Assembly (NCBI GenBank): GCA_003194525.1
Contig: NBIV01000660.1
Span: 1 to 22,875, forward strand
Length of the DNA: 22,875 nucleotides
Direction of reading: 5' to 3'
From: Gracilariopsis chorda
Lineage: Eukaryota > Rhodophyta > Florideophyceae > Gracilariales > Gracilariaceae
The position numbers and the translations under genes were made by a program. The notes under the pieces were generated by a model, which did not search any database, was not told the DNA's origin, and worked only from the letters and a program-made list of their open reading frames with translations. This document shows positions 1-19,932 of this stretch, piece after piece. The stretch's first letter is position 1; each line of letters starts with the position of its first letter.

Positions 1-330
1 CTGACCCTTCGGCAAGTGCCGGACTTTCTATCCCCAGCGGGGTGACGGCGAATGAAAACGAAATCATCACTTTTCCTCCGGGGTGCCGGTCTTAGCGCTG
101 CCGAGGTATCGGGGGATGTCACCACCATGGCGGACGCGTTGGCCTACCGCCTTGCTGGGGGTTACGCCCCGGACGATGGGGGTGAGTGAAACCTCTAGTC
201 CAGTTTCCTGGTTCTTCTTTCCCTGCTATGCCAGTTAGTGTAGTGTAGTGTTGTGGGGAGCTAGCTGCTCCCTTGAATAAACTTTCCCGTTTAGAACGGT
301 GCTTCTCGGTTGAGTTCCCCGTCTTCGACG

Positions 331-361
331 GACCTTGTCTTGTTATCCTTTCCTTTCGCTC
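331..361 (-). promoter_or_regulatory. Possible polypurine tract of copy A
   Basis: Starting about 20 nt downstream of the chromodomain stop, the minus strand becomes strongly purine-rich (AGCGAAAGGAAAGGA and onward). LTR retrotransposons keep a polypurine plus-strand primer just before the 3' LTR, and copy B has a purine-rich tract in the same relative place. The few pyrimidines and the absence of a recognised LTR start immediately after make this tentative. Confidence 0.3.
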
Positions 362-379
362 TCCGCTTGCGCGGCAACG

Positions 380-736
380 TTACCCAACTTGGGCATTAAC
401 CAGCGTGGCTGGGGCTGCAGTTCCCGTTTGACGGTGGTATCGCAGGACCTGCGACCGTGGGAGGTGTTCAATTGGCTCCCACGTATCCCCACTGGGGTCG
501 TACCCGTACCAGCGGACGCGGTATTGTAGAATACCATCCTGGTCCCAGGTGTGTCCGACAAGTCGGTCTACTACGAACTCTCGTTCGTAGACCTGCCGGC
601 CGTGCCGGGTGGTGGTTGTAATTCCTTGCGGGGGCTGCCCGCTGTGCGGTATAATGTCCCTTAGCAGGTGTTCGGCGATAACTCCGGCGTTGCCGTGCGC
701 TGTGGTAGCGGGCGTTGCTCGTGCGGGAGATATCCC
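380..736 (-). CDS. Chromodomain at the C-terminus of Pol, copy A
   Basis: On the minus strand a frame is open from just after TGA 737-739 to TAA 380-382, with no usual start codon, so it is presumably reached from upstream Pol. After a short variable part it encodes a chromodomain: REFVVDRL, then YRVRWYGY with the aromatic and Trp core, then TWEPIEHL, then a basic tail ending AQVG. In chromoviruses this domain binds modified histone tails and guides integration into particular chromatin. Copy B carries a clear homologue (12190-12423); aligned without gaps, I count about 38 identities in 69 residues. The domain identity is firm. Which upstream frame it joins is not resolved, because the linker changes frame. 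Confidence 0.85.
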   Translation of the reverse strand, partial: GISPARATPATTAHGNAGVIAEHLLRDIIPHSGQPPQGITTTTRHGRQVYEREFVVDRLVGHTWDQDGILQYRVRWYGYDPSGDTWEPIEHLPRSQVLRYHRQTGTAAPATLVNAQVG

Positions 737-2000
737 TCAAGAGGGTGTGTGGTGCCACGGTTTTCACCGGCAAGTCATTCCCCATTGGGGCCGGTTCATT
801 TCCGCTTTCGCGGTTATTGCGGGCGAACCGCCAGTCGGCGGGGACTTGGGCTCCGCCTTCACGGTTGAGCTCAAACGCGAGTTTGCGGGAAGATGACCGC
901 TCCTGCGGGGTCGGCATTTCCACAATCCCTGGGGGGCCCCGTGCGACACGGTGATTGGGTGCAAACCGCCTCCCTGCCAGGCGCATGAGCGCTCTGCACC
1001 ATACGTTTCCGGCAATGCCGTGGTGTCCCCGGCTACTGACGGGTTGCCTGGGGCTAACTCCGGTACACCGGTATTTTGGTCAAAATTCCCCTTTGGGGGG
1101 TGCCGGGCAGGTGCCGATGATACCCTTTTTCAGGGGAATTGCCGCTAAGCGCGGTGCACCATCTCCATGAGGAGGAGCAGCGTCCGGTACGACCGGTTTC
1201 GAGCGTGTGATGGCGCGCGTTTTTTCCCGAGTTCTCGGTTCTTCGCCGCAGCGATGCGCGGGTTGGCGCAAATTATTTCCCGTAGCGGGGGCTTCGATTC
1301 CGTCAACGAACGGAGGCGTTTCCGGTGCTTGCGAGCCAGGGCTTAAAGCTTCAACTGCGGCTTAGGCTGCCTTTTTCCCCAAGAGGGGTGTGGGTATTTC
1401 CCTGTGAGGCCGGCGTATCTGGGCGCCCCTTCTCCGCAAGGCGCGGGTCTGATCGACCTGATTGAACCGCTTCCGCGGGGCCTTCCGCCAATGGGCGGCT
1501 TCGAGGCATCGGCGATTGCCTTTCCGCTGCTGCGGTATTGGAGTGAGGCTTCTCGTTTTCCCGTGACAAACGGTGTATTTGCCGCTTTTGCGGGGCCTGC
1601 GCGTCTGGTTCCTGTTGCACAGCACTGCCCGGGAACGGGGGATTAGTGTCGCGTGACATACTCCGTGCTCCACGGTCCGTGTTCCGTATGTTACGGTGTG
1701 TTTCCCGTTGCGACGGCGATATTGTTCCTCGAAGACGAGTGTTCTCCTCCCCCTCCTTAGACGGAGCGGCGGGATAAGGGATAACATTCCCCGCCTGGCG
1801 GGTATAGATGCGCGCCAGTGGGGCATACGTGGTAGGGGCGGGCGCTGAGGGGCCCGAATTACCCGGCTGAGCCGGTGAGTCCGACAGAGTCGGTAGGTCT
1901 GAGAGTCCCCGGCTGGGGTGTTGTAGTACCGTAGGTCTAGTACTCCCGGATGGTTCCGGTGTTGCAGAGTCCGTACAAACGGGGTTGCCTGGATCCAGGA
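737..2000 (-). other. Long linker between integrase and chromodomain of copy A
   Basis: About 1.26 kb separates the last integrase frame from the chromodomain frame. No single long reading frame covers it. Fragments at 1351-1659, 1362-1826 and 468-986 (minus) are hydrophilic, rich in Pro, Arg, Ser and Glu, and resemble a low-complexity linker that changes frame. Dense short hairpins continue throughout, for example CCCTC/GAGGG-type and CCGC/GCGG-type arms. No known domain is recognised. Copy B has a Pro-rich linker in the same place (13245-13700), which argues that the spacer belongs to the element and is not a separate insertion. Confidence 0.5.
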
Positions 2001-3541
2001 CTACCTCTGACGAGGGAGGAGGGCAAGGACAACACGATCACGGGAAATCCGTTCGTGCGTGTCGCCCATCTCTACCACGATGGTGTCGGTGTTAACAGAG
2101 ATGACCTTGAAGGGTCCATCCGCCACAGGCGAGAGTTTGTGACGCTTCTCCCGTTCCGGGTTGTAGTACTCCTTCCTGATGAAGACGTAGTTATTTGCCC
2201 GAATCGGGGGTGTCTTTCCTCGCAAGCGAGCGTCAAAATTCCGCTTGTAAAGCGCTTGGCCCGTGCCATAGACTTCCACGCAGCGGGGAACAGCTTGGAA
2301 AGCCATTGCTTCCATTGCTGCCGGTAGATACCCACAGATGGAAAATTGTCCAAGGTAGCTTGGGGTTCCAGCGCCACAGGCGGGGTGTTCTAGATAGAAC
2401 CAAGTCGAATGGCGAAAACTCCGGTAGTCCGGTGTACCTGCGTATTGTACGCGTAGGTTACCGCATCAGCATAGAGATCCCAATTCGTTGGGTGGTCAGC
2501 GACGTAGGAACGTAACGCCGCGAGTAACGTCCGGTTAAACCGTTCAACTTGCCCATTACACTGGGGTGGTAGGTAGTCGTGAACAAGTTCTTGACATCCA
2601 GGATGCGACAAACATCCTGGAAGAACTTGCTCACGAACTGCTTCCCGTTGTCGGAGAGCACCTCCACAGGGGGACCGTAGACAAAAATCCAGTGCGTCAC
2701 AAGAGCCTGGGCCACCGTGAGAGCGGTTATCCTCCGAAGAGGGACAGTCCGTACCAGTTTAGAAAAGCGGTCGGTGATGACAAGTAGAAACTTGTTTCCA
2801 CGTTTTGTGGTGAGTAGTGGTCCGAGAAGATCAATTGCGATAAACTCGAGTGGCGCCCTTGCGGGGGAATAGTTTCATCTTCTTCGCATTTTTGCGGAGT
2901 TTGACGCGATTCTTCGCGCATTCGCTACAAAACCGCACAGTTGCGTAGCAATCCACCGCCATTGCGGGCCAATAGAAATCCCTTCGCAGGGTTAGGTAGA
3001 GTTTCCTCCCACCTGGGTGACCTCCAATGGGGGCGTAGTGTGATAGATGTGACACCCGCGATTGCAGGGAATGTGGTACCACAATCTGTGGGCGGGCTTC
3101 GATCTTTCTTACGAGGTAGCCTTTGTCGTTTACCCCGAAAGGGAGATCTTCACCACCGTTGATACGGGCACGAATTCTCGTACAGAATGGGTCGCCGAAT
3201 TGTTCTCGGATCATTTCTTCCGGTGATACCGGTACAAAGTTTCCCGGTAACGGTTTCTCAGATTTATCTCGCGATGCGAGTAGTTCGTCAAAATCAGCAT
3301 CCTCGTCCCAGGTTTCTGGCCTAGCCTCGACGGCATGTTCCGGATCATCCGGGTCTATAGCCATGAAACATGGGACTTCATCATCCTCCGTTGGGAGTGC
3401 TTCCCCACTTGTGGGTAACCGCGACAAAGCGTCGGTCTGGGTGTTCTGCGCACCCTTTTTATAAATGACTTGAAAGTCATATTCCGCGAGGCGGAGTCTC
3501 CAGCGCATGAGGCGTCCCGACGGGTCGGAGATATTCATCAA
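2001..3541 (-). pseudogene. Pol polyprotein, second part: end of RNase H and integrase, frame-broken
   Basis: The segment 2831-3541 encodes the RNase H tail, a linker, and the integrase HHCC zinc domain (two His near SHYAPIGGH, then CSEC), followed by FYWPAM. The catalytic core follows in pieces: the first Asp near AIDLLGP (about 2840), the second in SDNGKQF (about 2650), and Glu in QCNGQVERFN (about 2555). The GPY/F motif appears as GPF at 2109-2117. These pieces lie in different frames. I place changes at about 2852-2867, 2563-2566, 2415-2418, 2382-2385 and 2258-2259, mostly at runs of 3-5 identical bases. The last frame stops at 2001-2003. Either this copy's integrase is dead or the assembly has homopolymer errors; with Gag and RT intact, both remain possible. 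Confidence 0.85.
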
Positions 3542-5858
3542 AACACCTCAATGAAGAATGATCCGTGTACACGGTGAAGTGAATTCCCATAAGGTAGGGG
3601 CGCAGAGTGGTCATCGCCCATACGACGGCGAGGCACTCTTTCTCCGATACGGAGTAGTTCCGCTCATGAACATTGAGCGAACGTGACCAATAACCAATTG
3701 GATGTCGTTCCCCCTCGGGGGTGGTTTGAAAAAGAGCACACCCGACTTGGTAGCCGCTCGAGTCCGTATTTACGGAGTATGGCAACCCAAGTTTTGGGAG
3801 ATGTAGGATTGGTGCTGATGTGACAGCCTCCTTTGAGGAGTTAAAAGCTTCCGATTGCTCGGGCGTAAATGTTCCCAGTTTTTGGGGGTTCCCCTTTCGC
3901 AACAACGCGTTCAGGGGCGCTGCAGTATCCGAAAAGTTCGGGATAAACCGTCGATAGACGTTGACCAGCCCCAGAAAGGAGCGCAGTTCCGTTTGAGTAC
4001 GGGGTTCTTTCGCCTCAACGAGGGATTTGACTCGAGCTTTCTCGATCGCTAACCGTCCAGGACGGATAATGTGACCCAGATACTTCACAGTATCTGTGAA
4101 AAACTCGCATTTCCTCAACTTGAGGGTAATTCCCGCATCGCGGAGTACGGTCAGCACGTCTCGGACGTGAGTGAGATGGTCGTCCAACGAGTTGGAGAAG
4201 ATGATAATATCATCAAGGTAGACCAGACAGCTCCGCCACTTAAAGCGGTTGAGTAGAATATCTACTGCACGCTGAAAGGTGGCGGGGGCGTTGGTTAACC
4301 CAAATGGCATCCGCCTGAAGCGGTACGTTCCTGCATGGCAGGTGAATGCGGTTTTGTCGAGATCCTCCTGTCTGACAGGTACTTGCCAATATCCCCAATT
4401 GGCATCAAGGGCCGTGAACACGGTGGCGTCTCCAAGGGAGTCAATGCACTCGTCCATACGAGGGATGGGGTACGTGTCCCTAACAGTCACGGCATTGAGC
4501 CGGCGGTAGTCGACACAGAACCTCCAGGTTCCGTCGGCCTTTAAAGCCAGTACAACTGGGGATGCCCAGGGTGATTGAGCGGGCTCAATCACACCTGCGC
4601 GGAGCATCTTGTCCACTTGGGACTGCTCCTCTTCCCGAGCTTTCGGACCTGCCCTGTAAGGGGGTTGTGCAACCGGTCGCGCACCGGGGATTAAATCGAT
4701 CCGGTGTTCCGTTGCATTAATCTCGCCAAGCGAGACATCCCACATTGTGGTGAATTCCCGTAACATGGTACGGAGTTTGTCGCGGTGCGACTCTGGCACG
4801 TGGCTGAAGTCCAGCGCTTCCAGTGATTTTTCCGGATCAATCCGGTCGTTGCTCGATGGAGCATTGTCCTGTGGAACAGGTGTGGTTCGCGATTCCGAGC
4901 TACTCGGTATGTTCGACGCTGACGTAGCGGTTTCCTCCCCCTCCTTAGACTTGACGTCTTCGGACGGCGTGGCGAACTCCTCAGAAGAGGTGGTAACTCC
5001 GAGTACATCGGCGGCTGTCATCTTTGTTGGCAGCATTCCCATAGGATGGGGGGTTACACTCCCAATTACTTGGTGTTTGACCAGATACTGGGGGTGTTTG
5101 CCAAGGTTGGCAACCAATATCCGGCAAGGAACATTCGGGGAAATGGAGACAATTCCATTAGCCAGCGCCAGCTGGGATTTCTCGTACAACGAGGCGAGGG
5201 GTTGTATAACCCGAAGACCGTGTTGACGGGAATTTACCTGCACCCAGACTTGGGACTCAGCCGGTATAGAAACCGAGGAAGCGAAGCGGAGCTTGGTTGA
5301 CTCGCGGGACGCGGGCGTTGGTTCCTGCGCAGCAGGGAGCGCAACTTTTTTCCGAGAGGACCGCTTTAGCGGGCGGCGAACAATCGGAACCGACGATCCG
5401 TCGTCAAGTTCTACACGCCTGAGGCGGGGCCTGATTGCGTCGACAAATCTGTCGCAGTAATCACATCCCAGTATCACTGGTGCTGCCAATGAACGGCAAA
5501 CGATGAAGTACAACTTCACCACAGAGGTACCAAGTCTCACGACGAGGTCCACTGTGCCCACCGTTTGTAACGGATTGTTGTTCGCATCCGAAATGTCGGG
5601 GACCGCGTCAGAGCGGATACGCGACCGCACAAGCGGGGGTAATAATGATTCCACAACAAAGTTGGGGCCTGCACCTGTATCCAGGACGGTTAGAAACCTT
5701 ACCATAAACTGGGGGTCAAGGCCAAGGTCGGCATAGACCTTATAATTGCGCTTGGCCAAGACCAAGACTCTACCGGCAATCCGGGGATTTTTACTCCGTA
5801 TCCACGGGCGACGCAACACATCGAGGTGCGCAGAGTCCGCGTCAGCGGTGTCTTTCCT
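3477..5858 (-). CDS. pol: Pol polyprotein, first part: protease, reverse transcriptase, RNase H
   Basis: The frame is open from just after a TAG (5859-5861) to 3477, with no obvious ATG; GTG at 5817-5819 is the first near-cognate codon. The retropepsin active site DTGA is encoded at 5670-5681, with the ILG motif about 70 residues later. RT follows with its conserved blocks: IEPAQSPWASP, the first catalytic Asp in FTALDANWGY, FGLTNAP, and YLDD at 4209-4220. RNase H shows its catalytic Asp in TDSSG (3762-3764), then SEKE and TDHSS. The frame changes at the A4 run 3540-3543 (T4 on the coding strand); the real protein continues in another frame as the end of RNase H and integrase, so the last 20 or so residues before 3477 are spurious. 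It copies the element RNA into DNA inside the Gag particle. How it is translated relative to Gag is unclear. Confidence 0.9.
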   Translation of the reverse strand, partial: RKDTADADSAHLDVLRRPWIRSKNPRIAGRVLVLAKRNYKVYADLGLDPQFMVRFLTVLDTGAGPNFVVESLLPPLVRSRIRSDAVPDISDANNNPLQTVGTVDLVVRLGTSVVKLYFIVCRSLAAPVILGCDYCDRFVDAIRPRLRRVELDDGSSVPIVRRPLKRSSRKKVALPAAQEPTPASRESTKLRFASSVSIPAESQVWVQVNSRQHGLRVIQPLASLYEKSQLALANGIVSISPNVPCRILVANLGKHPQYLVKHQVIGSVTPHPMGMLPTKMTAADVLGVTTSSEEFATPSEDVKSKEGEETATSASNIPSSSESRTTPVPQDNAPSSNDRIDPEKSLEALDFSHVPESHRDKLRTMLREFTTMWDVSLGEINATEHRIDLIPGARPVAQPPYRAGPKAREEEQSQVDKMLRAGVIEPAQSPWASPVVLALKADGTWRFCVDYRRLNAVTVRDTYPIPRMDECIDSLGDATVFTALDANWGYWQVPVRQEDLDKTAFTCHAGTYRFRRMPFGLTNAPATFQRAVDILLNRFKWRSCLVYLDDIIIFSNSLDDHLTHVRDVLTVLRDAGITLKLRKCEFFTDTVKYLGHIIRPGRLAIEKARVKSLVEAKEPRTQTELRSFLGLVNVYRRFIPNFSDTAAPLNALLRKGNPQKLGTFTPEQSEAFNSSKEAVTSAPILHLPKLGLPYSVNTDSSGYQVGCALFQTTPEGERHPIGYWSRSLNVHERNYSVSEKECLAVVWAMTTLRPYLMGIHFTVYTDHSSLRCFDEYLRPVGTPHALETPPRGI

Positions 5859-5953
5859 CTAGAGGAATTTCACCGGGGAGCGAGGCGGGGACGCCTCGGG
5901 CGCCAACAGCCTCGTTCTTGAGGACGCCTCTCCCAAAGGGGAGACTCCCTCAG

Positions 5954-8128
5954 TTAGTTTTCCGCCTTCGGCGGTGGGTTGGTTTCCTCGACAACGAGTG
6001 CTTCATCCCGTTGACGGGGGTTTCTATCCGCATAAGCGGGGGTTGCAACGGATGGTTGCGTGATCTCCCGAATCGGGGTGTATGAAGCTTGCCGCGCACG
6101 CGGGGTCTGTGGTAGGGCATGGGAAAAGTCCGTTTTAGCACGGAGGTAGGAAGCCGTCGGGACGGAACGTTTCTCCTCTGGAGTGAGGGCCTCATAATTT
6201 GCCACCACCTTGGCCATATCCTTCAGTGAACAAATACACTGAGGTGAGTTATGGACATGGGTATAGCACAGGTGGCATATGAGAGCCAACACCGCGACAC
6301 GCGGATTATTATTCCGAGTATCGGAGAAGCGAACCGCAGGGCGGGTGTCAGTCCATCCAGGTCGTTGATAACGGGATTGACCGTTTGAAGACGGGAGTCG
6401 TTGGGGTTGAACCCGACTGTTACCACTGTACACAACGGGGTCTTCCGTTCCCGTATCACGGGTCATCTCCGTCGTTGACGGCAAATCACTGGTGGGTATG
6501 GACACACCATCCCCCTGCACTAAATGCACGGTATCAAATCCCTTTCCAGGGTTCCCATCCGCGGTGAGCGGGAGAGAGGAAGCTTCGCTTTCCAGCAACA
6601 ACGCCTTGGCGGATTTAGACCGATTGTTCGGAGTTCTTGCACGAAGTGCATCCCCTTCCGCTCGAGCGTGTTGGACCAGCTCGAGGTAGGTGATCCTCCG
6701 CTTGTCCTCCCGATAACGGGTAACTAAACTCCGGATTGCCGGGTCAAGACCATCGATGAACATGGTACTGCGCTCCCCATGGGGGTATACGTTACCACAT
6801 CTGTGGAAAGCCTTGTTAAGGCGCACCGAGTAATCGGTCTCGGTCTCTCCAGCACGCTGGCGTGTATCTCGCAAAGCGAGGATAGCCTGCTGAATAGCGG
6901 TGTTGGTGGCGTAGGAGCGCAGAAGATACTGCACAGCCTTTGGCCAGCAAGTAACTCCTCCCTCGGAGGCGCGAGAAGATCCTCTGACAGATGTGTATTG
7001 GTCCTCCGCCACTCCCCGTAAGAAATACGGTAAAGCCAAATAGGCTTGTCCCTCATTCATACCGAGGATATCGGCCTCCGCTACAAAGCGGGATAGGAAA
7101 TCCAGTACTAGGACTGGGTCCTCTCCAGTAAGATACTGGTTGCGGAGCGAGAGCTGCATTCGCTTAATGCATTCTCGCACCTTTCCCGTACCACGGGGCG
7201 TACGTCCAAGTGACGAATCTTCGAGCCGGTAGTACCGGTATGATAAAAGCTTCCGGTAATCCGGGTTTGTCGGTTTCAATTCCCGGAGACCGGGGTGTCT
7301 TCTCCCCTTCTGGCGGGTTCGGACCACACCTTCAGTGGCCGATGACCGCTTCGAGCGGGAGGAGTAGCCTCGCTTCTCGTCCTCCGAGTCGGAGTCCGAG
7401 GAGCTCGAGCTAACCGAATGGTTTCGGGATGAGTCCGACGATGTCGAAGAATCGGAGTCCGAATATTTTCGGTGGTGTTTCCGTCGATGACGGCGTTTCT
7501 TCTTCCCAGCAAGCTGGTCGTTGTGCGATGCCTCGTTTACCGGATCATCCGGGGATGGTTTGTCCATGAGGACGAACTGCTCCAGCGTCTCCAGGCGGGC
7601 ACCAATCCGATCAAATCGGGCTTCAACTCCTTCGATGAAGGTGGCGGGTTGTCCCAAACTCTCCAACACGGAGTTGACGTCAGACCGTAAAATACGGAGT
7701 TCCTCGGCGATCTCCTTTACAGGGGTTGCCGAGACCACCTCTTGGAGGGATTTTAGTTCCCCTGCAAGGGTGTCATGGGCGGTCCACAGAGCGCGGACCT
7801 GGGATTCCAGAGAAGTCCCCTGGGGGTTGTTATCGCCCGTTCCACGGGGGTTTGAAGCCGCGACAGCGGGAGCAGGCCGGGGTGCCTGGGGCACTGCGGC
7901 AACAGCCGGAGTCGATGCTGCATTCCCCTGCGGGGGTGATAACGAGGGCAAAAGGAGGTTCCGGGGTTCCCGGTCGGGGGTATCATTCCGCGATGAAGCG
8001 GCGCCAGTACGGCTGGAACTTGTCCGTATAGGGATACGGGGTACGAACCGAACTTCGGATGTGTCCGCGTTGTCGCGGGAGCGACTACGCGTAACCACTG
8101 GCTCCGCGTCGGAGGGATTTCTCGACAT
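5954..8128 (-). CDS. gag: Retrotransposon Gag polyprotein (724 aa) with CCHC zinc knuckle
   Basis: This uninterrupted frame starts at ATG 8126-8128 and ends at TAA 5954-5956. Visible regions, in order: a Ser/Arg/Pro-rich N-terminus (1-105); a heptad-like, probably coiled-coil stretch (about 108-185); a strongly basic block (209-221) followed directly by a Ser/Asp/Glu-rich block (223-251), resembling an SR or nuclear-type low-complexity segment; a Gag core-like helical region (about 330-500); and one zinc knuckle with C618, C621, H626 and C631 in CX2CX4HX4C spacing. Gag should assemble the particle and bind the element RNA through the knuckle. It lies upstream of pol in the same direction. It is long for a Ty3-type Gag because of the N-terminal additions. 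The family is certain; the role of the basic/acidic segment is unknown. Confidence 0.9.
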   Translation of the reverse strand: MSRNPSDAEPVVTRSRSRDNADTSEVRFVPRIPIRTSSSRTGAASSRNDTPDREPRNLLLPSLSPPQGNAASTPAVAAVPQAPRPAPAVAASNPRGTGDNNPQGTSLESQVRALWTAHDTLAGELKSLQEVVSATPVKEIAEELRILRSDVNSVLESLGQPATFIEGVEARFDRIGARLETLEQFVLMDKPSPDDPVNEASHNDQLAGKKKRRHRRKHHRKYSDSDSSTSSDSSRNHSVSSSSSDSDSEDEKRGYSSRSKRSSATEGVVRTRQKGRRHPGLRELKPTNPDYRKLLSYRYYRLEDSSLGRTPRGTGKVRECIKRMQLSLRNQYLTGEDPVLVLDFLSRFVAEADILGMNEGQAYLALPYFLRGVAEDQYTSVRGSSRASEGGVTCWPKAVQYLLRSYATNTAIQQAILALRDTRQRAGETETDYSVRLNKAFHRCGNVYPHGERSTMFIDGLDPAIRSLVTRYREDKRRITYLELVQHARAEGDALRARTPNNRSKSAKALLLESEASSLPLTADGNPGKGFDTVHLVQGDGVSIPTSDLPSTTEMTRDTGTEDPVVYSGNSRVQPQRLPSSNGQSRYQRPGWTDTRPAVRFSDTRNNNPRVAVLALICHLCYTHVHNSPQCICSLKDMAKVVANYEALTPEEKRSVPTASYLRAKTDFSHALPQTPRARQASYTPIREITQPSVATPAYADRNPRQRDEALVVEETNPPPKAEN

Positions 8129-9052
8129 GAGAAAATACCGTTACGACGGGAAACGATCACGGAACTTCCGGTAAATAAAAACAAACCTCCTAAGAGGGAA
8201 AATAAAAACCGATTCTAGGTCGGGAGACCACATTGTGGTGCAATGCCCCAAAGGGGGAAAAACACCGAAAGACGTTCGGGATCTTCCTCTCACGAGGTGA
8301 GCCCAGTTGGGTAGAGCCCTCCCAGAGGTGTCACGGCGAAGCCGGTTTGTAAGACCAGGGACACCTGTCGCGACTCGCGCAGGGAGGTGAAGGCGAAGAA
8401 TCGGTATCCGCGTGAGCGGGGTGTGGTCCTCACTAGAGGTATGTTTCCACGTAAGTGGGGGTGTGTGAGCGTATGCGCACACGAGGGCCGCGGAAAGCAG
8501 GAGGTGCTACCTTAAAAAGGGGAAAAAGGAAGGGCGAAGAGGGGGAAGAGAGGACGAAGTGAGTCGCGAGAGCGACGGGGACGAACGGCGATGCCGGTAA
8601 CAATATCCGTATACAGGGCGAAACACCAATGCAATTGGAACAATTATACTCCCAGTGATGGGTCCCTTTAGATGTGCAAGGGGGTTAGATGTCCCGTGGT
8701 TTACGGCGTTTCCCTCCAAGGAGGAGTAGAGTACGCGCGCAAGCGGCAACAACTAGAGCCAATTCCCCAGGTTGGGGTCCCTTGTTGGGGAAGGTTCACT
8801 GGTGCGACGGCAGTGCGCCGTCGCACTAAGTACTAGCTTCCCAGAAATGGGTGTGAAAATAATAAATAATATTGACTAAAATACTCCACATTTCGTGGCA
8901 ACATCCACTACTGTGGCCAACCGCCAATTGACCCAAAACCGTGTCCCACGTGTCCATATTCACCATAGTGGGGCGTAGTTCATATACACACTACACAACC
9001 GATAATATCGGGAAAGCGTTCAAGTACCCAGAATCCCTCCCTGAGGGCGTTG
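8129..9052 (-). other. 5' leader and presumed 5' LTR of copy A
   Basis: This 0.9 kb stretch lies upstream of gag and has no credible gene. It continues the dense short inverted repeats of the rest of the element, for example CCGC-gtga-GCGG at 8408-8419, CCTC-acta-GAGG at 8428-8439, CCAC-gtaa-GTGG at 8447-8458, CCGATA-a-TATCGG at 8999-9011 and CCCTC-cct-GAGGG at 9035-9047. I could not identify a tRNA primer-binding site, a TATA box or the internal LTR end. Confidence 0.45.
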
Positions 9053-9411
9053 CACTTCAAACTTTTTTTGCCATCCTTTAGCTGTGCGTTTGACTCTGTG
9101 TTCCGCTTTTGCAAGCTTTGTGGCTTCAACAAATACGTCTTTCAGATTTATTTCTGCTGTTTCCTGTTTCCGTATCCTGATTTCAACATCATTTTGAACA
9201 AGATTTGAACGGTGTCTTCATCGTAGTTCTGTGTGTCTGTGGCTCTTTTTTCTTTGTTTTCTGATGTGTTCGCTATTGCCTCATTCGTTGGTGTATCTTG
9301 TTGTTCCTTTTGTGGGGAAGATAGAGCCGATTGTAAAGCCTCATTTTCCAGTACAAACAATGCAGTGTTTGCCATTGCATTGGCTGAGATTTTGTCGGGA
9401 CTTGCGCTCAT
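9053..9411 (-). pseudogene. Myb/SANT-like DNA-binding protein remnant, apparently cut by copy A
   Basis: The frame starts at ATG 9409-9411 and encodes a Ser/Gln/Glu-rich N-terminus, then YDEDTVQILFKMMLKSG. It stops at 9148, but the next frame continues plausibly (ETAEINLKDVFVEATK, then a WQKKFE block) to about 9052. The change of frame lies near the A3 run around 9160. The spacing of acidic start, helix, middle helix and a Trp-containing basic third helix resembles the Myb/SANT-like domains of plant-type transposon and transcription proteins; this is a pattern match by eye only. The frame then runs into the hairpin-rich copy A, which I take as an insertion into this gene or into its own transposon. 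Its continuation would lie left of the window. Confidence 0.4.
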
Positions 9412-10200
9412 TTCTCTAGAACAGAGAATTGCACTGAAGTGTTAAGGAGGAGGACGAGAAGCGTAGTGTTTGAGCTTTACAAACAGGCTTGTATACCGCA
9501 GAACAGCCGCACTCTTTCTGTTTCCCGCGAAAGGGAACTATCGTTTTCACTGTCGTTGCAGCGTTTCTACATTGGCGCCAAATTGTCCGCTCGGCTCAAA
9601 AATGGCTCGGGACCATTTCAGCTGTTTTTCGTGTCCATTGTATTTCTTGGGTCTGTCCTAATGTAGAACGGGCCTTAAGTACGATTGAGTGACAATAAAA
9701 CAAGAATACTACTACTGTAGTGTGCCACACTTGTAGTTCTTACCCCTTGGCGGCACTGCCAGCCACGGCAAAACACGACACGTGTGAATCATGCCAACTA
9801 TGAATAATATCCGTACGCTTGCCACGCGTCCATCTGTTCCAGATACCAAAGAAATTATCCACGAAGCTTCCAAAATACCAATTACAATTCATATCGAATT
9901 TCATCCAGTATTTCCGAGGGTCCACTTATACCTGAGTTGAAGCAATGCCACGTTGGTATTGATTCATACATGATCCACCTCGCATAGAGGGTATGGGCGA
10001 ACGCATTGTCGAAAACGTCTCTTTCCTTAGAACAGGAAACATTGCAACGAAAGTGAGTGATCTGCAGGCGGAAAAGGATATAAAGAATCCAACTTCTCAA
10101 GAGCGACACCGAACTCACTCCGGATCAAAGCATAAAGCGGCAAATGAAAACTAACAAAATCGAAACCGATTTGTCATCTACGTTAATGAACTCAGAGAAT
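9412..10200. other. No gene recognised
   Basis: Upstream of the Myb/SANT-like frame, this stretch has only short overlapping frames on both strands with no recognisable motif, and it lacks the hairpin density of copy A. Part of 9412-9700 may be the promoter and 5' UTR of the neighbouring minus-strand gene. Confidence 0.3.
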
Positions 10201-10545
10201 CTCAACCAATAATACCCCGGAGCGGGTACTTCCCAGTCTGGGCGTATAGGTCCTTCATCCTCCCGGCTGAGCCGGTTTCTTACGGCTCCATTGCCTCATT
10301 GTAACGCTCCAATAATCTTTCTGGTACAATCCTATCATGGTACTCTGGTTGTCATGAACCAACTGAGGTAGGTCCTCCGGGTAGCTCTTTAAGCATGGGA
10401 TCCGTTACAGAATACTTCCATCTATGCCCGCGCTCCTTGGTTTCACACGTGCCAGGTTTTCTACCTGCCACTGATCCATTCCTATGCACACGACACCGGT
10501 GTCCCTGGTGGGCTTCCACTTGAAGTGGTCACTTCACGCGATTGG
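10201..10545. repeat. Hairpin-bearing island, possible retroelement relic
   Basis: Several inverted repeats of the copy A style occur close together: CCCAG-t-CTGGG at about 10232-10242, CCGGC-tga-GCCGG at about 10263-10275, a perfect 12-bp palindrome at 10492-10503, CCACT-tga-AGTGG at 10516-10528 overlapping TGAAGTG-gt-CACTTCA at 10521-10536. The segment shares a short hairpin string, CCCGGCTGAGCCGGT, with copy A near 1862. No coding domain is seen. It may be an LTR or non-coding remnant of a related element. Confidence 0.35.
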
Positions 10546-11282
10546 CGGGGACGCATTGCGTTTCATCATAACCTTTTAAAGATAGACCTCCCTCTTGGAG
10601 AGAACCTGGATAGGGCCCGAAAAGAAATGAGGCGACTTGCATTAAAAGGGCTCATGCATACTCCAAGTCAACATCTGCTTTCCAGTGAATACGACTTCGA
10701 CGTATCGAGTTATCGCACCTATGGCGAAATACATATGGGGATAGCCTGGCCCACTTTGATACGGCACACTTCGAAACCCCAACAAGGGTAACTATCGAGT
10801 CCGATATGCTTTTTTGGGCGAGACCCATCACCCCTGCAAAGTTTTGGTTCCTCTGACGTTCTGAAACGCAAGCGGCGTGCTCCGAGAGGATTCGGTTTGA
10901 ACGCAAGGCGCGTTCCGGACATGGTTATTTGATTCAATACACCAATATCGAAACCGAACGGTATCTCCGGCAAACGTGCAGGGGTCGCTTGGCATCGTTG
11001 CCACCGTGTTGGCGTCAGTCTGAGGTACCCAAGGGGTGTTTCCTGGACATTTCTCCCTGTTTAACTTATATAAATTTCTACATCATTGATGATCCGAGGT
11101 CCAGTTATTGGTCACTTATTGCCGCCGATCGGAATACCTGCGTAGCTGTTTTCCTTCTCTGGGTAGCGTATGACGAATACCGTCTTTGGTTCATACCACC
11201 AATGGTAAGGAACATCATCAAACAGCTCGATCTTTAAGTCCCATTGGGATACCAAGACAACGTGGACGAAGTCTAATACATT
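10546..11282. other. No gene recognised
   Basis: Frames of 80-100 codons exist on both strands (for example 10525-10791 plus and 10719-10973 minus) but overlap one another, have no recognisable domain and mostly rely on non-ATG starts. I see nothing I can name. Confidence 0.25.
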
Positions 11283-11790
11283 TTGGATTTGATCGACCCG
11301 GTCAACTGGAATACAGTTCCGTGGAATAACCGTGGTCAGGGTTCAAGAAATACTCGTGCTAAATGTCCCGGTCGCCAGCATACAACTGCTGGAGACTTCG
11401 TCTATTACCGCTCGTATTTGGGTGCAACGGTGTCCCGTGCTCATGCATTTGAGCACCGCAGTCTTCTGCGGGCCATAACAGCGGTTCATCTGACAGGATT
11501 TGTATTTCATGACGATTACGATCCTTTGGTCGCCTTCGATGATCTGATGATGGACGAAGAGGCCACGGAGAGTGGCGGCCTTTACCATGGACCGGTCATG
11601 GATACGGTTTTTGCGAAAAACGCCAGTGCGTCCAAACCAGCGGGTGCTCTCGAGGGCTGAGGTTTTGTAATCCAGATGAGTGAGCCGCAACTCTAGCGGA
11701 CGATCCACTTACGGTTTTAACGGACCCTCACGTCATCGCGTTGTGCGAGAACCTCCAAATCCTTGTAATCCTAGTACTTCCGGATACGGT
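11283..11790 (-). repeat. Possible relic of the copy A linker region
   Basis: Two anchors look like copy A in the same order and at nearly the same spacing: TGATCGACC at about 11290 against 1450, and CTAGTACTTCCGGAT at about 11770 against CTAGTACTCCCGGAT at about 1938. Copy A-style hairpins persist, for example GTGCTCA-tgcatt-TGAGCAC near 11437-11456 and CCGCAG-tctt-CTGCGG near 11457-11472. A 125-codon plus-strand frame spans 11283-11660, but it has no known domain and a TTG start, so I do not call it a gene. The homology is weak and judged by eye. Confidence 0.3.
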
Positions 11791-13781: not shown

Positions 13782-15091
13782 GAATTTATAAAGCTTATGA
13801 CGATTTTCTTTTTCAGGATTATAATACCACTTACGAAGGAAAACGAAGTCATTTTTGTTAACTTGCGGTAGCGATTGACGGAGATTGCCGTCGAAAAATT
13901 ACGCCTGTAGGCAAGTTGAGCTTTGTCGATAGCTTTCCAGGCAACCGTTATCATCATCTTTAACCATTCTCTTCAGTTATCCTTGCGCTACCGTGGTGAA
14001 AGGTACGCCGACAAAGTCGCTTGACCGTCGATTGCCACCGGGGGTGGGATTCGCGACAGCACCAACTCAAAAAGTGAAATTGACGTATCCCGATGTATCT
14101 GGGTAGTGTAGCCATACGTAACCGCATCAGTATACGGGTCCAAGTCCTTAGGATGATCTGCAAAATAGGATCATAATGCGTTAAGCATCGTACGATTAAA
14201 TCGTTCCACTTTTCCATTACCCTGCGGGTGATACGTAGTAACGAACATATTTCGAACATTAAGAATAAGATATACGTCTTGAAAAAATTTTGACGTAAAC
14301 TAAAGACCGTTTTCTGATAGTAAATCGACGGGTGGACCGTAAAAGAATTCCCAATGGGTGACAAAGGCTTGTGCCACCGCTGTGGTGGTAATCAGTTTAA
14401 GCAGGACTGTCGTATATCTATGGCCACGAATCCCAGGGGAGCGCATTTTAGAACAAACATCAACTTCTCTGAGTACATCCGTAGTTTCACGTTGTTTTTA
14501 GCGCATTACGTATGAGAGTGGCAAAATGCATAACAGGCCAACGCCTTGGCGGGCCAATGCTAATCTCTGCGGATAATCAGATATAAATTCCTACCCCCTG
14601 GGTGTGCTCCGAGTTGCACATAGTAAGGGAGTTAGAGAGCCCTTCTATATAACAAGTGGGCTACCACAATCTTTGGAGACGAATTAACGAACCTGACAAG
14701 GTATTCCTGATCGTTTGTCGAATGAGGTAAGTCATATCCTCCATTGAGGCGACTGCAAATCTGCATACATAACGGGTCGCATTGTTACTCACAATGCCAC
14801 TCTTCTGGAGTTACAAAACGTAAAAAAGCCTTTCTTCGAGTGGTCCAAAGTCTCAGAAGCGAGAATATTGTCACAAATATCCTCTGAACACTCCTTGGTT
14901 TTCCGTTCGTCGTTCGTAACCATGAACCACAGTATCTCGAGATCAACTACCAATTCTGCTTCTGCAGTGGTTTTCATGTTGGATAAAGAGTCTTCTAGCG
15001 TTTTAGGGGTTCCCTTTTTTAATAAAGTATAAAGTACTTCAAAATCAAACTCGAAAGTCACAGGCGCCACTAAACGAGGCTTCCCGAAGAT
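13782..15091 (-). pseudogene. Integrase core and zinc region, copy B, degraded
   Basis: Scattered frames (13355-13957, 13960-14364, 14789-15070 minus) carry fragments matching copy A integrase and the RNase H/integrase linker, such as FDFEVLYTLLKKGTPKTLEDSLSN against the copy A stretch before its zinc domain. Stops and frame changes are frequent and no complete DDE triad can be read. It is non-functional. Confidence 0.65.
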
Positions 15092-16302
15092 TTAGCCATC
15101 TATAAGGGCCAATGGATGGAGAAATGGTCCTTGCGTACCATAAAATTGGTTCCTGTAAGATATGGTTGAAGAGTGGCAAGTGCCCAAACAACTGTGAGAA
15201 ACTCGTTTTTCCGAAACCAAGTAGTTACGTTCGTGGACGTTCAATGCCCGAGACAAATATCCGATTGGGAATGGATTACTGTCTTCAGTCACTTGAAATA
15301 GTCCAAACCCAACCTCTTTACCACAGGTATCAGTATCCAATTCCTAAGGTAAACCAAGACTTTGCAACGTTAATATTGGTGGGAACGTCACGAAGTTGAT
15401 GAAAGCCATGAAAGACGATGATTCGGCGTTGCCAAAAGGTTCCAGTTTGACTGGTTTTTCCTCTTCAAAAGAACATAAAGATGTTTTGCAAGCTCAGCAA
15501 AAGGCAGGACAGACTGACGATAAATAATAAAAAGTCCGAGAAATGATCGAAGTTTCATTTGCGTAGTCGGATGTTCGGCGTTCTTCAGCAACTTAAGTAT
15601 TAATTCGTCTTTTGAGATGTCCTGGACGGATTATATGTCCAAACAACCTAATCAAATCGGTCTGGAACCATCTCTTGAGTTTTACTGTAGTCCATTTAAT
15701 ATCTGCACAAGGATGACGCTTCTCAGATGGGTTCTGTGATCATCCAAGTTGTTGGAGAACATAATTACATCTTCGAGATACACCAAGCAAGTCGTCCATT
15801 TAAAACTGGCCAAAAAAGTATCTATGGCACATTGAAACATAGCCGGCGCATTGGTTAACCCGCAGGGAAATCTTGTGAAATGATATGGAGCTTGGTCACT
15901 TACAAATGCGGTTTGATCACGGTCCTCCTTTCGGATAGGGACTTTTCCATTATCCCAAATGGATTCAACAGTGGTGAAAACAGTTGGACTCCCAATTGAG
16001 TTAATGTTCTCTGCAATTGGAGAAATCGGGTAAACGTCTTTGCCGATAACTGTGTTAAGACGTAGGTAATCGATAAATATCTCCGCGATCCATCAAAATT
16101 CGGAACAAGAACAAGCAGTGAAGCCCAAGGAGACTGAGCAGGTTCAATAGCGCTGACTCGTAACATCTTCTAAACTTGAGATTTTCCCTCTTCACGGGCT
16201 TTCGATCCAGCCCGATAGAGTTTCTGTGCAACTGGAAGATGTTTCAGTAATAAGTGCATACAGTGATCTTTTATTCCTATTTTTTCAAGGAAACCGCCCC
16301 AT
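15092..16302 (-). pseudogene. Reverse transcriptase and RNase H, copy B, degraded with YLED active site
   Basis: RNase H similarity is clear at 15092-15340 (DTDTCGKEVGFGLFQ, then RALNVHERNY). RT similarity includes IEPAQSPWAS at 16100-16160 and the active-site block at 15771-15783, which reads YLED and not the YLDD of copy A, so one catalytic Asp is replaced by Glu. Several in-frame stops and frame changes follow. This substitution alone would be expected to cripple RT. Confidence 0.75.
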
Positions 16303-17439
16303 ATGGGAGTAAGCGAAGCATATCCCGTAGTATCACGCGGTGAGAGTTGGAAGCATGATCCTCAAGCTTCTCGAGCTGCTCTATAGGATACGCGTGTTCT
16401 GAAGCAGGTTGTAGCGCACGGTCTTCCGTAGTTCGGTCACTTCCGAAATCGAAATCTGAACTACGGTTAGCATTTACGGATTTCTTCCACTTTTTTGAGT
16501 CCTCACTCTCAGGATGGGAATCACTAGGATGTTTTTGTGCAATGTTACGCATCGCGGTGGAGAAAAATCCTAGAAATTCATTTCTGACTAATCACTGAGT
16601 GGTTATGCTAAGCGTTACTGCTAGAAACTTAAACGGAACATCAAGATTGATCAAAATGACTCGGTTTGAAACTGAAAGGTGACATTGGTTTTATCGAGAC
16701 AAAATCGTTGAACAACATGACATTTTCTCTGTTTAAAAGCAAATGAGACCCATTTTTGAGACGTCAGTGGTACTGCAACTGAATGAGCGAAACCAAGCTC
16801 CCTCAAAACAACTATTCGTGCACTGAATGTCCTACGTGGCCAGTAATGGCCATCAATTCTGCTTTGTTTCTCCTAGCGTGTTCCGATACCCACTTTTGGC
16901 TTCTGGACAATCGATACGGTAGAAATGTTTGCCATTTTGATGTTTTACGCACGCCAGCAAATTGTTTGTACAAAACAATCAAAGAATTCAAAACTAAGAA
17001 ATACTGGTGTCGATAGTTCATCGCATAAAATAACGTCCAGTTGAACTATACAGATACTCAATGTTCTAACAAGAAAAACGTATGCCAAGGTTTTTAAAAG
17101 ACTGTCGTTCGCTTCAGCGATATTTAGGCCTAGTCTACAGCAAATATGAATGCAAAGAGCTGGAAGTACTATTGGGAAGTGATATAGTTGGGGGCAGCCT
17201 CTGTATCTGAAACCAAAAACTAGCGAACTCTGTACTGTTTTGAACAAGCCAAGATCGACGTAAAATGTGTAGTTTCTCTTGGCAATGACCAGAGCTTTAT
17301 CCAGAATATGTAAATTAAGAGAACGTATCCATGGACGAGGAAAAACCGAGATGGTTACCCAGCTCACGTCGGTTGCAGCCATTTTCCTGGTGAGGATCCT
17401 GATAGCTAGGGAGCGAAACTGTACCACCTCGTTCGTCAA
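16277..17439 (-). pseudogene. Protease and pre-RT linker, copy B, degraded
   Basis: The segment 16945-17439 aligns with the start of copy A Pol (PRPWIRS, then AKRNYTFYVDLGL). The protease active site expected shortly after is lost: the DTGA position reads as unrelated residues. The stretch 16277-16552 encodes an acidic linker ending in NSHRVILRDML, matching ESHRDKLRTML of copy A before its RT domain. The intervening 16553-16944 is too degraded to follow. It is non-functional. Confidence 0.65.
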
Positions 17440-17510
17440 CTTCGGCTCAGAGTACGCCCTTGCCGTTGGGGAGACTCCGGATTCTAGTTTTCTGAGGTAT
17501 CAAAAGATTG

Positions 17511-19077: not shown

Positions 19078-19796
19078 TTATATAGCGCAATAATCATACA
19101 CGGGAATCTCGGCTGCAGCCGCCTGAAACTCTACGTATTCCCTCAGCCGTTTCGGAAGCACAAGCCCCTTCACAATCGTTAACGTACGTAAACGCGGGAA
19201 GAGCACGATATCATCATACGAAAGCCCGTGCGGGCTGCAATGCTCCGGCGAGTAGATCATTTCTGCAAGCTCGTCCAGACGCTCCTGCACCTGCGTGATG
19301 TACTCAGTAGACCGATCAAAATTGTCTTCGTAGTCGCCTGGATCGCTGAGCGGGTGGTTGCGAATATACGTTTTCCCTAGCCTCTTGGAAGACAAACTCC
19401 GGTAGCGGCGCACGGGAGAAAACGGACGCGAGACAGCCTTCTCATGGGCATCGCCAGCTCGTCCATCCATTTCGCGATGTCGTCCCTCGGCGTCGCCGAC
19501 TTGAGCAGCCCAGGCGCCCCGAAGCGCGGATCATTGTCAACATGCTTGCAAATATCGAGGCTTTCGGGCTGTGCGGGACCGCCGGTACCTTGCGGCTGGA
19601 AGATGGGAACGACCTTGCGACCGACGAGCGCGGTGGGGGTGGTCACATCGTCGTTTGCGAGGAACACTAGGTTGTACTTGATATTCTTGAGGCCAAGAAG
19701 GTGACGAACGCGGACGCAAAAGGGACAGTGATCGTACACGTAGAGGGTTGGGAGGGGAGAGAGGACAACGCGAGGAGGGAGTGAGGGGGTTGGCAT
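19078..19796 (-). CDS. Grx2-like (GrxB-type) glutaredoxin with internal frame breaks
   Basis: The N-terminal half (from ATG 19794-19796) encodes a glutaredoxin fold: LYVYDHCPFC with a CPFC redox motif, VGRKVVPIF with the cis-Pro region, then ESLDICKHVD for glutathione binding. The C-terminal half (19078-19370) encodes the helical domain typical of E. coli Grx2, including LSYDDIVLFPRLRTLTIV, and ends VYDYCAI with TAA at 19078-19080. The halves lie in different frames. A short third-frame stretch between them (LPEFVFQEAREN) also fits the family, which places two breaks at about 19371-19378 and 19400-19425. The family makes glutathione-dependent dithiol oxidoreductases with a GST-like fold. A leader in another frame from ATG 19930-19932 (MAFVSTPALTRLSRG, Arg/Ser-rich, good start context) could be a transit peptide. 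It is either a recent pseudogene or an assembly error. Confidence 0.8.
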
Positions 19797-19932
19797 TGTG
19801 GAGGGAGTTGCAGCTGAGCAGAACGGCGTGGGACGCTGCACGCTGCGCGAAGAACGGTCGGCAGGGAGCGATGGAACAAGGGCGGAAGCCGCGGCTGAGG
19901 CGCGTTAGAGCGGGAGTGGAGACGAAGGCCAT

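Follow-up and report, generated by a model that had tools for sequence, protein, structure and literature searches.

Short local hairpins cover a Ty3/Gypsy retrotransposon lineage of the red alga Gracilariopsis chorda over its whole length

We analysed a window of 22,875 bp from the red alga Gracilariopsis chorda, which is the entire contig G000:C651 of a genome of 91.3 Mb in 1081 contigs, and identified at its start a Ty3/Gypsy long terminal repeat (LTR) retrotransposon, termed family A (positions 1-9059, minus strand), that is rich in short hairpins throughout. Dinucleotide shuffles give 37.6 hairpins with stems of at least 5 bp, whereas the element contains 156; those with stems of at least 4 bp and loops of 3-6 nt number 313 against 112 expected, or one per 28.9 nt, and are found in all its parts. 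These counts confirm a first-pass annotation of the window, made without database searches, that had described an inverted repeat about every 30 nt in gag, pol and non-coding DNA; the interpretation offered with it is partly supported. We propose that the lineage to which this element belongs has probably been selected over its whole length for a cover of short local hairpins.

The window was scanned for non-overlapping perfect hairpins (arms of at least 5 bp, loops of 1-7 nt) in 1-kb segments, with 20 dinucleotide shuffles of each. The nine segments of 1-9 kb contained 11-25 hairpins per kb versus 5.0-7.2 in shuffles (z 2.1-9.2), and segments outside the element contained 4-13, with shuffles across the whole contig at 4.6-7.2. 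Values of z were 2.7-3.3 at 9-11 kb, and from 13 kb onward -0.6 to 0.7, except at 18-19 kb (z 2.0); the segment at 14-15 kb stood out with arms of 4 (z 4.7). Inside the element, stems of at least 4 bp occur at 27-36 per kb across gag, pol, integrase, leader and 3' region, the density in the last of these (34.1 per kb) being similar to that of gag and pol. The parts of the element, with examples of its hairpins, are:

1..9059, minus strand: Ty3/Gypsy element of family A, hairpin-rich throughout, truncated at the 3' end, where the contig starts
8234..9059, minus strand: 5' LTR of 826 bp (808 bp, with TG...CA ends, in the complete copy on contig C57)
5954..8128, minus strand: gag open reading frame (ORF) of 724 amino acids, with a CX2CX4HX4C knuckle recognised by eye in the alignment
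3477..5819, minus strand: pol ORF, with reverse transcriptase (RT) and RNase H
2831..3541, minus strand: H2C2 part of integrase, in a frame that differs from pol in the window copy
2393..2758, minus strand: putative remnant of the integrase core (..NGQVERFN.., by eye), with an rve match in the sister copy L003
1..2200, minus strand: 3' region without an established gene
4020..4595, no strand assigned: stretch picked by the first-pass annotation, with 15 hairpins (arms of at least 5 bp, loops of 1-6 nt)
4571..4592, no strand assigned: example hairpin, arms of 10 bp and a gap of 2 nt
8802..8826, no strand assigned: example hairpin inside the LTR, arms of 10 bp and a loop of 5 nt

The stretch at 4020-4595 had been credited with 17 hairpins at loops of 1-7 nt; the local concentration stands, at the slightly lower count listed above. 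The annotated end of the element at 9047 should read 9059, and its description as a whole retrotransposon is slightly off: the contig begins inside the element, so that the 3' end and 3' LTR of the window copy are missing. We found a complete sister copy of 11,510 bp on contig C57 (G000:C57:203157-214666), whose two 808-bp LTRs share 99.75% identity, have the ends TGAAG..CCACA and are flanked on both sides by TTTAC. The purine tract AAGGGGGGGGATA precedes its 3' LTR, so that LTRs with TG..CA ends, a target duplication and a purine tract are all present on this copy. At its LTR edge, hairpins per 200 bp rise from 0-1 outside to 4-7 inside.

The gene order (gag, RT, RNase H, integrase) is that of Ty3/Gypsy elements. 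Pfam matches in the window were RVT_1, RT_RNaseH, RT_RNaseH_2 and Integrase_H2C2, and the rve domain was matched in L003. No Pfam match was found for the gag of the window copy; some of its relatives carry PF03732. For the chromodomain that marks the chromovirus branch, at or after the integrase C-terminus, a separate ORF of the copy L081 gave a weak match (20.4 bits against a cut-off of 25.1, E 0.0005), and PF00385 is present in several relatives. The closest named algal relatives are proteins of Agarophyton chilense (75% for the searched part of RT-RNase H, around 50% for gag). A 3-kb query matched at least 40 places, the window included, that are 97-100% alike, with 40 of 1550 candidates scored.

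The hairpins have a narrow geometry. Their stem excess lies at 4-6 bp, and loop lengths peak at 3 nt (63 versus 6.2 expected), being raised also at 1, 2 and 4 and slightly at 5 and 6; loops of 0 and of at least 7 showed no excess over expectation. The loops of 1-2 nt would be loops of 3-4 nt with innermost bases that match by chance. Inverted pairs were enriched (266 versus 85.7) and direct pairs mildly so (143 versus 93); mirror pairs and complement pairs were not enriched in the element. As previously annotated, the arms differ among hairpins, and there is no direct repeat of at least 40 bp in the window, so a dispersed repeat or miniature inverted-repeat transposable element (MITE) unit was rejected. 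Linkers between hairpins are commonest at 5-12 nt (134/312), and centre-to-centre spacing peaks at 20-24 nt (85 versus 55.6, z 4.4) with troughs at 10-14 and 30-34 nt, as expected once most sufficiently wide gaps are filled. Hairpin-free runs of at least 21 nt cover 33% of the element, versus 80% in shuffles.

The CCNN..NNGG form reported for these hairpins was recovered as a strong bias of the outer pair of 4-bp stems, which is 5'C-3'G 208 times versus 24.1 expected; the other pairs are much less enriched (G-C 29 versus 24.0, A-T 21 versus 14.4, T-A 37 versus 15.9). Inner stem positions take any base, but are complementary: at CC-N9/10-GG sites, all three inner pairs are complementary 59 times versus 2.0 expected. 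Sites for dimeric DNA-binding proteins were discarded as an explanation, since a site read only at its ends would not need such inner complementarity. Read in the sense direction, the hairpins are followed by A-rich sequence (A at 0.41-0.44 at position +1, versus 0.23 overall) and preceded by A or C. The loops are G-poor, and no loop motif was found.

The excess is independent of composition and codon usage. It survived the dinucleotide- and codon-shuffle check that had been proposed with the original claim: with 100 synonymous-codon shuffles per ORF, gag contained 45 hairpins versus 11.4 (maximum 21), pol 46 versus 9.9 (maximum 18), and the integrase (IN) ORF 11 versus 2.9 (maximum 7). Dinucleotide, codon and synonymous shuffles thus rule out a compositional or codon artefact. 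An origin of the hairpins through amino-acid change was likewise rejected, with conserved columns differing in 5/56 arm codons and 22/206 arm-free codons; they differ in 6/19 codons having one arm base.

Among the loci examined, the trait tracks retrotransposon lineage rather than host. All eight family A loci have a 4.5-5.9-fold excess. The same genome holds two sister families, B1 (seven loci) and B2 (23 loci), and each of these 30 loci has a 2.5-4.3-fold excess; B1 and B2 each share 69% amino-acid identity with A, and 71% with one another. In contrast, 30 host kinase loci, the control that had been suggested, lack a comparable excess, both singly (0.34-1.61-fold) and pooled (519 versus 436, or 1.2-fold, with arms of at least 5 and loops of 1-5; 658 versus 663 with stems of at least 4 and loops of 3-4). 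Four Copia loci gave 0.91, 1.08, 1.09 and 1.78-fold with arms of at least 5, and 0.87-1.03-fold with stems of 4 and loops of 3-4. Two distant Ty3 families (33% and 38% amino-acid identity) gave 1.37-fold and 1.13-fold, and 1.34-fold and 0.95-fold. A general host mutation bias or a by-product of reverse transcription finds no support in the kinases, in three of the four Copia loci, in the two distant Ty3 families or in flanking DNA.

Relatives were additionally examined on eight contigs that are binned with bacterial or archaeal genomes but are probably eukaryotic contaminants. One of these relatives (L074, 49% amino-acid identity, from another record) has a 2.9-fold excess (arms of at least 5, loops of 1-5), two others (L073, 39%, and L077, 40%) have 1.5-fold, and the remaining five contigs have 0.7-1.1-fold. 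Scans of viral contigs confirmed no relatives.

In 30 sense-strand windows of family A, the minimum free energy difference (MFED) is 12.2 +/- 1.3%, and on the antisense strand 10.4 +/- 1.4%, compared with 7.5 +/- 3.0% for B1, 7.3 +/- 1.5% for B2 and 12.1 +/- 1.7% for L074, and with control values of 2.4 +/- 1.7% for the flank and 0.2 +/- 2.1% for the Copia locus L070. Folding energy is thus below that of shuffled sequence over the whole element, as in genome-scale ordered RNA structure (GORS).

We investigated variants among family A copies, excluding sites with gaps or N, in a set of seven copies that omits the mosaic L006, whose 3' part is diverged. In a conservative classification, in which an arm in a single copy suffices to class a site as arm and loops are counted with the other sites, variants shared by at least two copies occupy 4/1377 arm sites versus 48/4196 others (Fisher 0.0019); singletons occupy 56/1377 and 145/4196. 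With arms assigned by majority, shared variants occupy 0/1277 versus 52/4304 (1e-5). Inclusion of L006 as an eighth copy gave 8/1449 versus 56/4111 (Fisher 0.015); for 4-bp stems, the value is 0.006 when any copy defines an arm and 0.08 when the majority does.

Divergence between subfamilies also implicates the arms. In non-coding arms of the window copy, 8/335 G/C sites have changed relative to the other subfamily, versus 119/1253 outside (p 4e-6), and 7/138 A/T sites versus 131/1002 (p 0.005); an arm mask displaced by 16-24 nt gave 7-8% change overall. Reciprocal mapping of the other subfamily's arms gave a weaker contrast, 30/531 versus 220/2170 summed (26/367 versus 163/1450 in the 3' region; 4/164 versus 57/720 in leader and LTR). 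Non-coding arms thus diverge 1.8-3.5 times less than the rest, and the arms look constrained in family A. Some compensatory change, which the first-pass annotation had proposed to look for, is seen between subfamilies, with 16/455 pairs altered on both sides versus 6.4 expected under independence and 9 of the 16 still pairing, and between families there is little or no excess.

Individual hairpins turn over between families, which share 65-66% DNA identity: the mapped hairpins of A are intact in 7/62 cases in B1 and 4/63 in B2, other comparisons gave 8/37, 4/38, 6/43 and 3/43, and 0/28 of the A hairpins mapped are intact in L074. The individual pairings are thus poorly conserved among relatives, as in GORS. 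Where the two other families agree, the substitutions that build arms are scattered. Their rates in family A, in arms versus elsewhere, are 0.17 versus 0.145 at first, 0.08 versus 0.10 at second and 0.44 versus 0.51 at third codon positions; third positions gave 0.39 versus 0.49 in B1 and 0.42 versus 0.48 in B2. At first and second positions, arms and other sites are within 0.03 of each other.

These results support the proposal, made in the first-pass annotation, of a globally folded RNA under selection, on the grounds of lineage specificity, codon shuffles, family A variants, arm divergence and an MFED of 12.2%. The folded molecule would be the single-stranded genomic RNA, which would fold at once into a string of hairpins with 4-6 bp stems and 3-4 nt loops, approximately one per 29 nt. 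The selected property would be the overall state, with long unpaired stretches being eliminated, and single hairpins would be gained and lost by point substitutions, mainly at silent sites where the sequence is coding. Because the stems are Watson-Crick only, the complement strand would fold likewise. The benefit may be an RNA kept compact, and closed to antisense RNA, small RNAs and its own complement.

Several observations weigh against this interpretation. Selection for folding leaves the 5'-CC...GG-3' polarity unexplained. Neither interior pairs nor substitutions show the G.U preference that RNA folding confined to one strand would predict: interior mismatches pooled over A, B1, B2 and L074 comprise 59 G.U versus 57.4 expected, 64 A.C versus 67.2 and 42 A.A versus 25.7, and substitutions within arm pairs gave 17 G.U and 20 A.C. 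This does not exclude RNA folding, as RNA phages show the same lack. Avoidance of arms by shared variants was not found in B2 (6/536 versus 26/2800 in 19 of its 23 loci, the short L024, L025, L029 and L036 being left out), where 4-bp stems point in the opposite direction (13/651 versus 18/2564), and B1 has just five shared variants in total. The arm effect is small in the coding integrase (G/C 20/119 versus 111/548, A/T 17/78 versus 129/490). Few hairpins are intact between families, and double changes there are close to independence (45 versus approximately 42, A to B1). Stems of at least 5 bp reach 17.5 per kb in gag and 18.4 in pol, against 9.8-10.5 in the three remaining parts (10.5 in the 3' region), among them the less constrained non-coding ones. 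Finally, MFED is noisy: the Ty3 locus L084, with hairpins at 1.13-fold, gives 10.2 +/- 3.8%, and L083 gives 4.4 +/- 4.0%.

The main rival is repeated recognition by Gag, in which the hairpins would be putative binding sites, with 5'-CC/GG-3' at the stem base and A-rich flanks, whose tiling would drive packaging and compaction. We consider this unlikely as the principal cause, although it alone among the readings would account for the CC..GG polarity, which is strong in A (208 versus 24 for C-G, 29 versus 24 for G-C) and in B1 (6.6-fold versus 1.2-fold). The sense-strand flanks (A-rich on the 3' side, A or C on the 5' side), the narrow stem length, the spacing peak at 20-24 nt, and the CCHC knuckle and basic stretch seen by eye in Gag would also fit, and dispersed packaging signals have been proposed for small RNA viruses. 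The polarity is, however, moderate in B2 (4.4-fold versus 1.6-fold) and weak in L074 (3.4-fold versus 2.6-fold), there is no loop motif, and simple saturation also yields quasi-regular spacing. In its strongest, and doubtful, form, some 300-400 CCNNN-loop-NNNGG hairpins every ~20-29 nt would act as an assembly ruler read by Gag, an RNA-phage-like architecture inside coding sequence.

A less probable alternative is that the relevant strand is DNA, with hairpins in long single-stranded cDNA that aid its synthesis or protect it. Folding of DNA, or a requirement on both strands, would predict the missing G.U preference, but RNA phages, without a DNA stage, equally lack it, and the sense-strand asymmetry of the A-rich flanks does not indicate minus-strand cDNA.

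A purely mutational origin, in which template switching by the element's own RT would turn imperfect palindromes into perfect ones at every cycle, to no benefit, had been raised as a cause and is very improbable. In its favour, the stems have no excess of near-misses or wobble pairs, and correction would also make shared variants scarce in arms. Such copying would, however, change both sides of a stem, in clusters, without lowering arm divergence, whereas the arm substitutions are scattered at rates near those elsewhere, one-sided changes outnumber two-sided 76 to 16, and non-coding arms diverge less than neighbouring DNA. Similarly, three of the four Copia loci, which are also reverse-transcribed, have only 0.9-1.1-fold hairpins (the fourth 1.78-fold). 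We therefore reject template switching or neutral palindrome correction as the main cause.

Evasion of host silencing could also be a role of the hairpins. The host has two near-complete Piwi domains (ORFs of 590 and 1039 amino acids) and paired RNase III domains in two ORFs (1754 and 1762 amino acids); a search for RNA-dependent RNA polymerase gave no match, but neither did its positive control. We additionally noted broken Piwi-domain fragments on G000:C483, C648, C777 and C944 (also C48, C345 and C143), in inverted pairs ~200 bp apart with a period of ~8,000 bp, which would fit amplification of an inverted repeat derived from Argonaute.

Family A copies are mosaics. In L006 (G000:C451), the gag-RT part is within ~2% per 500 bp of other A copies, and the integrase part, from sense alignment column ~4720, is ~23% different from them; 3' parts of the L006 type were found at no fewer than 40 places at 99-100%. 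The stretch of 3-4 kb between integrase and 3' LTR (window 1-2200 and L081) holds short ORFs only, among them the one with the weak chromodomain match, and the 1.9 kb of it compared diverges by 11% between subfamilies. A query with the LTR matched at least 41 places, with 40 of 1759 candidates scored, and revealed no non-autonomous partners among them; the four same-strand LTR pairs formed, on C24, C28, C57 and C110, are all ~11.5 kb apart. At G000:C119:222930-224586, two LTRs of the family (90% and 99% similar to the query) face opposite directions with 26 bp between them.

Elsewhere in the window we identified one further retrotransposon piece:

14034..17491, minus strand: old decayed relative, nearest to family B2, with 65-72% DNA identity in pieces

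Over 14.0-18.5 kb, this relative has a hairpin excess of only 1.3-1.6-fold. Positions 9060-11500 have a weak excess (19 versus 9.3, arms of at least 5, loops of 1-5) and no gene identified there, and may be an older relic. Beside the old relative, at 19377-19841 on the minus strand, is a fragment of a host-like gene that matches glutaredoxin and glutathione S-transferase N-terminal domains. Among the Copia RT matches, six lie in a row on one strand at G000:C383:36202-50459, every ~2,680-2,790 bp, as if a partial Copia element were in tandem repeat.

Some RNA viruses are known to have large-scale RNA structure, a trait that still lacks an explanation. The family A element is an LTR retrotransposon with GORS-like structure, its short hairpins more closely packed than those of three RNA phages and of a form of their own, which suggests an RNA genome shaped like those of some RNA viruses. 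The presence of such structure in an abundant, recently active LTR retrotransposon would remove virus-specific explanations such as interferon sensing or an RNA replicase. The element offers a comparative system for the function of genome-wide hairpins, in which young copies are numerous and decayed copies, sister families and internal controls are at hand, among them structure-poor retrotransposons in the same genome as the hairpin-rich family. Our literature searches on retrotransposon and transposon hairpins, GORS, MFED and palindromes found no report of a hairpin-saturated transposon, in agreement with the first-pass annotation, which knew of none.

The RNA phages MS2, Qbeta and PP7, counted with the same script, resemble the element in their excess of short local hairpins (2.98, 2.65 and 2.19-fold for arms of at least 5, at 8.9-10.9 per kb) and in having no preference for G.U over A.C among interior pairs (63 versus 47.7 and 63 versus 41.8). 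This is usually explained in phages by both strands being kept folded to prevent annealing. The element differs in its denser hairpins (4.14-fold and 17.2 per kb in this comparison), in its CC..GG polarity, which is absent in MS2 and PP7 and weak in Qbeta (3.4-fold versus 2.2-fold), and in having a DNA stage and no RNA replicase.

Positive-strand RNA viruses with GORS, as described in PMC7642675, have an MFED of 15% in SARS-CoV-2 and 7-9% in hepatitis C virus, mostly unbranched stem-loops with turnover of pairing, and a rarity of shared but not single variants at paired sites. The element resembles them in its hundreds of consecutive, largely unbranched stem-loops, its turnover of pairing and an MFED in the same range, and family A in the scarcity of shared variants, but not singletons, at paired sites. 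It is unlike them in being an LTR retrotransposon, with uniform 4-6 bp stems and 3-4 nt loops, no wobble excess and a 5'C-G3' polarity. Among Ty3/Gypsy elements, those of Agarophyton chilense, compared through protein records, are similar in protein (RT-RNase H up to 75%, gag around 50%). Finally, yeast Ty3 belongs to the same superfamily and has a genomic RNA with mapped secondary structure, which PMC11381356 describes as an A-rich mosaic with a well-folded core of ~19% of the sequence, and not as uniformly tiled hairpins, unlike the red-algal element.

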